The notes under the pieces are model-generated. The model saw only the letters and a list, made by a program, of their open reading frames with translations. It did not search any database and had not been told where the DNA came from. 64,000 nucleotides of DNA, from positions 3,273,783 through 3,337,782 of the forward strand of contig JASSKH010000031.1 of assembly GCA_031763025.1 (NCBI GenBank). The letters run 5' to 3'. The translations under genes were made by a program, and so were the position numbers. Below are positions 16,401 through 19,400 of the stretch, piece by piece. The stretch comes from Macrocystis pyrifera (lineage: Eukaryota; Sar; Phaeophyceae; Laminariales; Laminariaceae). Position 1 is the first letter of the stretch, and the number at the start of each line of letters is the position of its first letter.

Positions 16401-19400
16401 TCGTCGAAATTCAACGGTCGAATATTGTGGCCCACCGAAACCTTGGTGGTAAAAGCTGTGCTGAAAGGGACGGAGGACCGCTTAGGGCAAGGCTGTGCAG
16501 CACTAGAGGTTGGAGCACGTTTTAGTCCTTTTCTGTCAGCCGCTCACAGCCACTCGGCCGACGAAGGGTGCTGTTGTTTCGCCAGAAAAAATGTTTCAAG
16601 TCATGAGTGAGGTGCAGAGCCACTTTACCCGAGCGGCCTACACGAGATCATGAACAAAAAGACACCATACCACTTCCGGAGCGTAGCACTAGTCTGATGC
16701 ATAGGAAAGGCAAATTCAGGCCAAGTTCCTCGCCTGCGAACGGGTGTATCTGATTATGAACCCACCCTAACCGACGAAAACAATCATGATGGAAGTAGAT
16801 CGTCCGCAAAACGGGACTGTGGCCAAAGCATTGTGGAGCACACCTATCGGGCAGCACGAAACCCCACTGTGATCCAACACATACATATTAGAGAACAGAC
16901 CATTGGCAGAGATACACCACGACCACCTGAGCTAGCAGCCGGCGCTTACTACAGTACGGCTGTGCTGGCTAGGGTACACTAAACCAAGTACATCTCTAAG
17001 GAGAACACAGTACTACCGCGTCCGTCTCTGACTGCTACGTCCCTACCTTCTCGGGGTACTACACAAGCGTTCCAGTCTGGATGCTGGGGATTGTCCCATA
17101 GAAGGCGGGAACAGGTTGCTCGTTCTTACTGGAAAGTGTGGGTGGGCACTAAAATATAACTTTCGCGTGCGTACTTGGTAAGGGTCTTGACTTCCAGGGG
17201 GGGGGGGGGGGGGGGGGGGGGGGGGGGGGGGGGGGGGGGGGGGGGGGGGGGGGGGGGGGGGGGGGGGGGGGGGGGGGGGGGGGGGGGGGGGGGTGTACGC
17301 GATAGGAGAGATGTACTCGATCTCATGCATGACCATAGTCGTATGACCATAGACCCTCGCATCGCTACAACGCCGGGACGGAGCATGTCGGGTTTTCACC
17401 GACCAGGCAGACGTTGCTTGCACCAAGCGCGAAGCGAAACGTGAGGTGTCCGGCGAGTCGCATGAAGGGTGAGCTGCATCCTACTAAGAACCGCTTGTGA
17501 GGCGGACTTGCATATGGATGACAGCTTCAATGAGTTAGTTTAATTTCCGGTGTGGCCACTTCCAGAGACAGGGGTGGGGGAGAGGGGGCTGAAGAGAACA
17601 ACGACAAAGATGCGAACCACAGATGGCGCTTTGAGGCACTCACCAGTCACATGAGCGAGCTATCACTCAGTGCTGATTCTCAGCTCAGTGGTTCTGGTTT
17701 ATACCCGACACTCAAATCATCAATTCATCCTCTGCTGCGGTAGATGTCTTGCCGATGTATGCTCTTACCGACCTTCACTGGTACTTGCTTAGACCGGTGC
17801 TTGCCCGGTGGGATGTGTGTGGCGCGGCTTTCGCCGACACGTTTTTTTTTTTTCCGTGCGATTCTCACGCAGCACTTCGTAGCGAAAAACCTAGGATCTG
17901 CGTGAGGTGTTTGGCCCGATGTGTGCATGATTCACAACGCAATGGTACCACCCTACCACAGCATTGTTCTTGTCACGTAAGCTCTGACAATATAATGCTT
18001 GTCACGCGTTTTTCTAATCGCAGGTCCAGCGTAGTTGCGAGAGTCACCTTCTCGGCGTGTACAGCCCACCAACTTTGCACCCACGTCATTGCAACATACT
18101 ATACAACTGTGACGGCGCATAAAACGAAAATCAACAGCTTCGCTTCCTTCTGGCGTATGCTATTTCGCGTTTTCAACGTTCGGGGTTAGTGAAGTCATTG
18201 ATGAGGGGGGCTGTATTATTGGTATTATCTAGTCGAGTATCCAGGTCGGATTGATATGAATAGCACCCTTTCCATAATCGAATACATCGGCCTTTAGATA
18301 CTCTTACATACGTGCTACACATTTTCGAAAAGAAAAAGATACGGACTGCACGCAATTCGCATGCAACAGTTTGTCAAACTTAGCTCAATGTGTGCAAGGC
18401 GCTACACAAGTTGACGACAGTCACACGTGAAAAAAGTAAACAAACAAAAACAGCCAGACCAGTGTTCGTAGAGACAGCTGTGCTTCTACTGCTGTAGAGT
18501 TGCTTTTATTCACGTACCGGTTGGAGGATCTGAGAAAGCCGATGCTGCCGTCAGAGTTGGAGCGGACGAGGCTGACGATGACTATAGTGCTCTCCTCTCC
18601 TTGGAAGCTGCCGCACGCGTATGGGCCAGTGTGTCAATCCAAAGGATACATGCACGGAGGGAGGAGAGGAAAAAGACAAACGAGGATCGCGTCGACTTAA
18701 AATGTTTTCCCCTCCTCGAAAGCTACGTGTGAACGTCCGTGTGTCAGAGCTAAAGGGGGCAAGTGCGGAAAAAGATTCACAGACGGAAATGGCTTGCGAT
18801 TTACTCGAGTGCACTCTCCCCCTCCTTGAAAGCTGCTACCGCATGCGAATCTGACGTACGACATAGTTTTCGAACAAGCACGCGCGGCACACGCAGGGAG
18901 ACATGAAACACGCTGGGAGAGAGGTGGAAGACGAGCGGGGCAGGCAGGAAGAGTGATGCGGTGCGTGGAAGACGATGCATGCCAGAATATGGAGACGCAC
19001 CGAATATTTTATGAAGCTATGATACTAACTGGAAGAGCTCTCTATTGCCGTACCCCACAGCAAACCTGATACTGACAAACGCCAGAGAGCGCCCGACGAG
19101 TACGCAAATTAAAAAATGTAGACAAAGCACCAACCACGTTCCAGAGGTATTGGCTAGTTTTTTTACTTGAGCCCCCACCAGCATTGTGCTTCTTGGGACA
19201 AAAAGTGAAAACACACACGGCCGACACGCGATTTGCCGGTGACGGGTTTGATAACGATGGCGGTTTGTGTTCTTCACTTTAGGTGGGCTCCTGTTTTTGT
19301 TCTTCGCTTTTTAGGCAGTACCTTGAAATATAGATAGGTAGCAGAGCAGATTACAGTGGACAATGCCACACCATGCCAACGTACTGGCTACGGCGAGCAA

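Follow-up and report, generated by a model that had tools for sequence, protein, structure and literature searches.

RTEX-N1_Ec32 of the brown alga Ectocarpus is a non-autonomous element of ~600 bp which, in the available part of its description, is the most abundant single family there and is putatively moved by a LINE, the origin of its 5' region being given as not determined (PMC12477816). LINEs specific for microsatellites also exist, and the accessible text of one report names Togen in (TG)n and some HERO families (PMC4640811). SINE/LINE pairs have common 3' ends and the tail repeats differ between LINEs; the tails of SINEs or LINEs named in the available portion of the source are poly(A), poly(T), (TTG)n, (TTGATG)n, TAA and TGTAA (PMC3747384). 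A poly(C)-tailed retroposon is not among the literature matches listed, which consist of titles and the starts of abstracts, cover few subscription journals and do not respond to the bracketed term "poly(C)".

We describe here a repeat in a 64-kb stretch of Macrocystis pyrifera DNA (the window). With moderate confidence, we favor the interpretation that it is a LINE-dependent non-autonomous retroposon of up to ~530 bp, which carries a poly(C) tail, prefers poly(C) tracts as targets and would be primed from a G run. Likened by description only, and as far as the available text on RTEX-N1_Ec32 goes, both elements are short (~530 and ~600 bp), putatively moved by a LINE and of undetermined 5' origin. 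With the Togen- and HERO-type LINEs, as portrayed in the accessible part of that report, it seems to have in common the insertion at a simple repeat; however, those LINEs are autonomous and use other repeats, whereas the present repeat is non-coding, involves poly(C) and has a C run upstream in half of its copies. SINEs, headed by tRNA, 5S or 7SL sequences, are likewise short, non-coding and dispersed, with a simple tail after the 3' region, but, measured against the portion of the SINE source at hand, the present repeat differs in its C tail, its T runs near positions 90-120 and its lack of convincing Pol III boxes. An earlier, sequence-only reading of this DNA considered an undescribed element class, which overstates the case: apart from the unusual tail and target base, the repeat is built like a LINE-dependent non-autonomous element.

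Copies, ends and subfamilies

Eighteen copies of this non-coding, oriented repeat were found in the window, 17 by profile search and one by blastn, where the sequence-only reading had counted at least ten with one body; all copies, counts and flank tests given here come from this single 64-kb window. With the 283-bp body at 17294..17576 as the nhmmer query, 15 matches exceeded the inclusion threshold, the query counted. A three-copy profile gave 17 matches with E ≤ 4.3e-5, the three model copies among them, and the best E in the reversed window, which served as a control, was 4.1. A second-round profile returned the identical 17 matches at E ≤ 4e-9, all 17 being in that model by construction. 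The eighteenth copy, B61, was detected by blastn with homopolymers masked, which aligned 33 bp (61325-61357) to 52794-52826 with 93.9% identity (E 1e-6); its score in a subfamily-B model is given by construction because it is part of that model. Subfamilies A and B have the C tail in common and resemble each other at 56-70% over the 3' part (the 53-kb group left out). Exact-pattern searches, four in viral contigs and one in genome contigs, gave no matches in these collections, which are non-eukaryotic and may omit records close to the genome of the window.

The longest copy, a52 (52105-52638, plus strand, 534 bp, both ends present), aligns to a13b (13394-13892, minus strand, 499 bp) at 80% over 517 columns, the first 7 of which are a C run; with homopolymers masked, the identity is 79% over 504 columns. 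Both copies, which are in the three-copy profile by construction, share approximately the same starting point, in flanks that are unrelated, and a C run immediately precedes each of them (C70 at 52035-52104 for a52, C7 at 13895-13901 for a13b). We take the two to be full-length. They reach ~250 bp further 5' than the ~280 bp over which the sequence-only reading had matched two copies and had called both of them full-length. The agreement itself stands, as 52363-52638 is 96% identical over 278 columns to the body of a17 (17294..17576, minus strand, also in the profile by construction), but the 52-kb copy extends to ~52105, and a17 is 5'-truncated, starting ~250 bp inside the full-length element. 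Internal starts near one point are seen at 17 kb and 26 kb and, less clearly, in one 53-kb copy (profile positions 234, 237 and 256), so that a shorter subfamily of ~280 bp is possible.

Over the whole family, the 5' starts spread from profile position 2 to 425, while 15 of the 17 profile hits extend at least to position 480. The two hits that stop earlier are a26 (at 413), an old copy whose 3' end is not recognizable (26703..26913, minus strand, E 5.5e-19), and the fragment a54 (at 468). Such loss from the 5' side alone, with the 3' end kept, is the pattern of LINE-type retroposition; together with a simple tail, it is well established as the signature of LINE enzymes acting by target-primed reverse transcription (background in PMC3747384).

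Two further ideas about the architecture were rejected. A dimer whose left half resembles its right half, as in Alu, yielded a best local match of 11 columns (score 17, read without a shuffle control), and a supposed element 3' end immediately preceding the 26-kb copy scored 15 as compared with up to 23 in shuffles.

Poly(C) tails and upstream C runs

A run of at least ten C lies no more than 40 bp downstream of the 3' end in 12 of the 18 copies, the tail being on the sense strand. The tail of a17 is a pure C97 (17197..17293, G97 on the plus strand), a length which, like those of the other tracts, depends on the assembly and may be inexact. Similarly, B57 of subfamily B (57154..57230, minus strand, E 4.3e-5) ends in C88 (57066-57153), and B61 (61325..61363, minus strand), the shortest copy with ~39 bp, in C32 (61293-61324). 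Among the 5'-truncated copies on the plus strand, a34 (34575..34745, E 1e-55) has C19, a46 (46017..46163, E 2.8e-27) has C21 at 46170-46190, and the tail of a48 (48252..48373, E 8.7e-22) is interrupted and followed by C13. In the other six (a33, a26, a27, a52b, a53a and a54) the tail is short, interrupted or absent: of the 5'-truncated copies in this set, a33 (33363..33555, minus strand, E 9.7e-41) has no recognizable C tail, and a27 (27268..27362, plus strand, E 5e-20) has a short C-rich tail with C6 as its longest run. The bases preceding the C run differ among copies (GAGTACA, GCGTACA, TAAGTACG, GAGTATTCCA, GACTA). Of the common ending followed by 10-97 C that was initially described, the pure C97 and the runs of C10 or more in 12 copies are confirmed; the last bases vary, and six copies lack C10. 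The description as a retroposon-like repeat with a 3' poly(C) tail agrees well with the ragged 5' ends, the mostly kept 3' ends and the sense-strand tail.

An excess of C runs upstream of the copies is a new observation beyond the sequence-only reading. A run of C7 or more occurs within 30 bp upstream of five of the 12 copies that do not follow another copy (a52, a13b, a48, B57 and B61), as compared with 2.1% of 200,000 random window positions; since the random positions include element tails, this comparison is conservative. Besides the C70 and C7 described above, the runs are C8 before a48 (48239-48246), C8 within the C-rich 5' flank of B57 and C13TC4 before B61. With flanks of 15, 20, 30 and 50 bp, the counts are 3, 4, 5 and 5 of 12 (P 5e-4, 3e-5, 3e-6 and 2e-5), the test having been devised post hoc, with 5' starts and a non-following set chosen by the analyst and with P values that assume independent copies. 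An upstream C content of at least 50% is found in four of the 12 (P 5e-4). The seven non-following copies with no upstream C7 are a17, a34, a33, a26, a46, a27 and a54; a17 and a33 have C-rich flanks nevertheless, and a34 and a46 have no upstream C run. A G7 run precedes one of the 12, a48, which has C7 as well. In the control, the 108-bp palindromic repeat described below, a C or G run of at least 7 is present in 1 of 58 flanks, and it comes from a neighboring copy of the same repeat. When all copies are counted, C7 or more lies within 30 bp upstream in 9 of 18; microsatellite-targeted elements are expected to have the simple repeat on both sides in most insertions.

The insertion into G/C runs that the sequence-only reading had suggested gains support from the C7 or longer runs before five of the 12 non-following copies and from the arrays in which copies follow tails. 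The short duplications that it had named as supporting evidence were not seen: in 9 insertion groups (a33, a26 and the 53-kb array left out), the paired flanks had a mean score of 5.2, as compared with 5.4 for mismatched pairs. A duplication inside a C tract would be invisible, and the result is therefore expected if the duplications lie inside C tracts, and equally expected if none exist. The sequence directly upstream of a48 (48211-48246) is G22-AGTATA-C8, in which the G run and the C run form an inverted pair that could represent two opposed tails.

In the interpretation we favor, a LINE enzyme encoded elsewhere would copy the element by target-primed reverse transcription. In the element RNA, the 3' domain would be followed by a C tract. 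A poly(C)/poly(G) tract in the genome, nicked on its G strand, would provide a G-run primer that can pair with this C tract. Tail and target would consequently be the same sequence, which would explain both the tails and the flanks. Incomplete synthesis may give rise to the 5'-truncated copies; an insertion would divide the C tract already present, so that the copy is flanked by C at either end, and its own tail might serve as a target for later insertions, producing arrays. If the C tail is indeed the preferred target, one base-pairing step would tie the choice of template to the choice of target, the origin of long poly(C)/poly(G) tracts in the genome would be explained, and the reverse transcriptase involved would be expected to initiate from G-run primers. 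The point is also relevant to annotation, as such long tracts are hard to assemble.

Runs of at least 15 bases in the window comprise 30 of C or G and 3 of A or T. An element 3' end was scored directly upstream of 9 of the 27 long C tracts, and a tenth, the tail of a13b, was missed by the cut-off; the remaining 17 might represent insertions of the tail alone or targets still vacant. A further-reaching possibility, which we regard as doubtful, is that poly(C) homing is self-seeding: insertions would bring new C tracts, so that the element itself would have made the long poly(C) load that later became its targets, and extreme 5' truncations would leave the tail alone. In this self-seeding reading, B61, with ~39 bp and C32, would be a step towards a tail-only insertion. 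Another repeat occurs at 57430-57579 and 59543-59599 (82% alike), with C90 within 3 bp after the first copy and none after the second; this C90 is possibly a tail-only insertion. In addition, 43249-43659 (~400 bp) is a simple repeat rich in C and in CT, with two C45 runs inside.

Head-to-tail arrays and alternative explanations

Three head-to-tail arrays are present in the window. The first (52035-52842, plus strand) has three units. The C70 tract at 52035-52104, which we read as a pre-existing target, is followed by a52 and by C24 (52639..52662), which is both the tail of a52 and the 5' flank of the truncated copy a52b (52666..52746, E 7.2e-19); after the decayed, C-rich tail of a52b comes B52c, a 5'-truncated copy of subfamily B (52761..52826, E 4.3e-5), with a C10TC5 tail to 52842. 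The second (13164-13901, minus strand) has two units, a13b with its C38 tail (13356-13393) and the 5'-truncated a13a (13212..13350, E 2.5e-30) with a tail of C31 plus C15 (13164-13211). The third (53462-54114, minus strand) has four units. It starts with a54, a fragment without a 3' end (54054..54114, E 1.8e-11), and continues with three diverged copies: a53d (53784..54034; E 6.7e-18 for 53784-53949, the longer extent being from the second-round profile), a53c (53640..53725, E 1e-12), with C21 before and C23 after it, and a53a (53462..53590, E 2.5e-11), with C23 before it and a tail without C10. C7 or more lies upstream in four of the six copies that follow another, being absent before B52c and a53d. 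Array neighbors are only 49-81% alike (a54 not in the comparison), and repeated insertion therefore fits better than recent duplication.

The alternative that survives best, although we consider it rather unlikely, accepts the same poly(C)-tailed retroposon and makes its insertion indifferent to C runs. The upstream C would then be left by an aborted template jump onto the tail of a second RNA, or by bases added at the cDNA end, and neither the arrays nor the 5' C runs would need a target preference, in keeping with the seven of 12 non-following copies without an upstream C7. However, a52b and B52c belong to different subfamilies and are 63% alike, and the C tract between them is decayed whereas that before a52b is pure; the mixed subfamilies and the unequal state of the tracts suggest that the units differ in age. 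A template jump would, moreover, have to stop at the tail to leave C70 alone before a complete copy, and likewise to leave C7, C8 and C13TC4.

It is distinctly improbable, in our view, that the copies are 5'-truncated 3' ends of a longer autonomous LINE rather than copies of a short non-autonomous element. The ragged 5' ends and the conserved 3' end are as LINE remnants would show; two copies in unrelated flanks, however, start at about the same point, and the longest stop-free stretches in six frames of these full-length copies are 95 and 63 codons. An origin without retroposition, from a DNA element (MITE or Helitron) or from a repeat spread via recombination between C tracts, is very improbable: body and C tract do occur together in arrays that unequal exchange could extend, but no terminal inverted repeats were seen (the local scores of 9 and 12 correspond to ~five or six matching bases and were read without a shuffle control), the truncation is one-sided, and the array neighbors are too distant for recent duplication.

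Searches for a promoter and a partner enzyme, and other features of the window

The sequence-only reading had proposed to look for a Pol III promoter or a partner reverse transcriptase; no such promoter was recognized in a52 and a13b, and no such enzyme in the stretches of the window that were scanned. The best box A matches are 11 of 12 in a52 and 10 in a13b (shuffle mean 10.8), and those for box B are 9 of 11 and 8 (shuffle mean 8.1); the A and B boxes thus score about as in shuffles, and the a52 pair, 233 bp apart, is not common to a13b. T runs near position 90-120 have lengths of 7, 9 and 13 in a52 and 8 in a13b. ARAGORN gave no tRNA match, and Rfam gave none at the gathering score, its five weak matches (E 0.9 to 4.9) lying far under that score, at chance level. 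Membership among SINEs was rejected, as neither a convincing Pol III promoter nor a tRNA, 5S or 7SL head was recognized.

Pfam found no reverse transcriptase domain in 300 stop-to-stop stretches of the window, which are the longest of 329 with at least 76 aa past a low-complexity filter and to which 10 chosen frames were added. At E 0.01, eleven rows were obtained, none of them a retroelement domain, with AAA_12 in both sets (best 5e-05).

Conserved 3' hairpins were also considered and rejected. The pairing of 84.9% exceeds the 30-53% of slid versions (15 of 18 copies; a26, a54 and B61 left out), but it is equalled or exceeded in 332 of 500 shuffles, and the covariation score in 244 of 500. 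The fold of the a52 3' region is no better than shuffles (z -0.63), and that of the whole a52 RNA is somewhat better (z -2.56).

The window contains several other features. The 108-bp palindromic repeat (TATTACGGGGG...CCCCCGTAATA) occupies 29 loci in 64 kb, ~one per 2.2 kb, for example 8915-9022, 44109-44216 and 62783-62997; by its ends and apparent TA flanks, we take it to resemble a Tc1/mariner-type MITE. The minus-strand frames at 4477-4956, 15758-16543 and 43082-43831 presumably recall an NFX1-type zinc finger helicase (ZNFX1-like). In Pfam, the frame at 4477-4956 gave a sub-threshold match to an NF-X1 finger (E 0.078) and that at 15758-16543 a weak one to AAA_12 (E 0.032); the AAA_12 match at E 5e-05 is in one of the 300 scanned stop-to-stop stretches. 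If these frames belong to one gene, it would have very long introns that hold several of the repeats. Another dispersed repeat, ~73% alike between copies, is located at 303-504, 12172-12427, 36902-37152 and 59554-59779.
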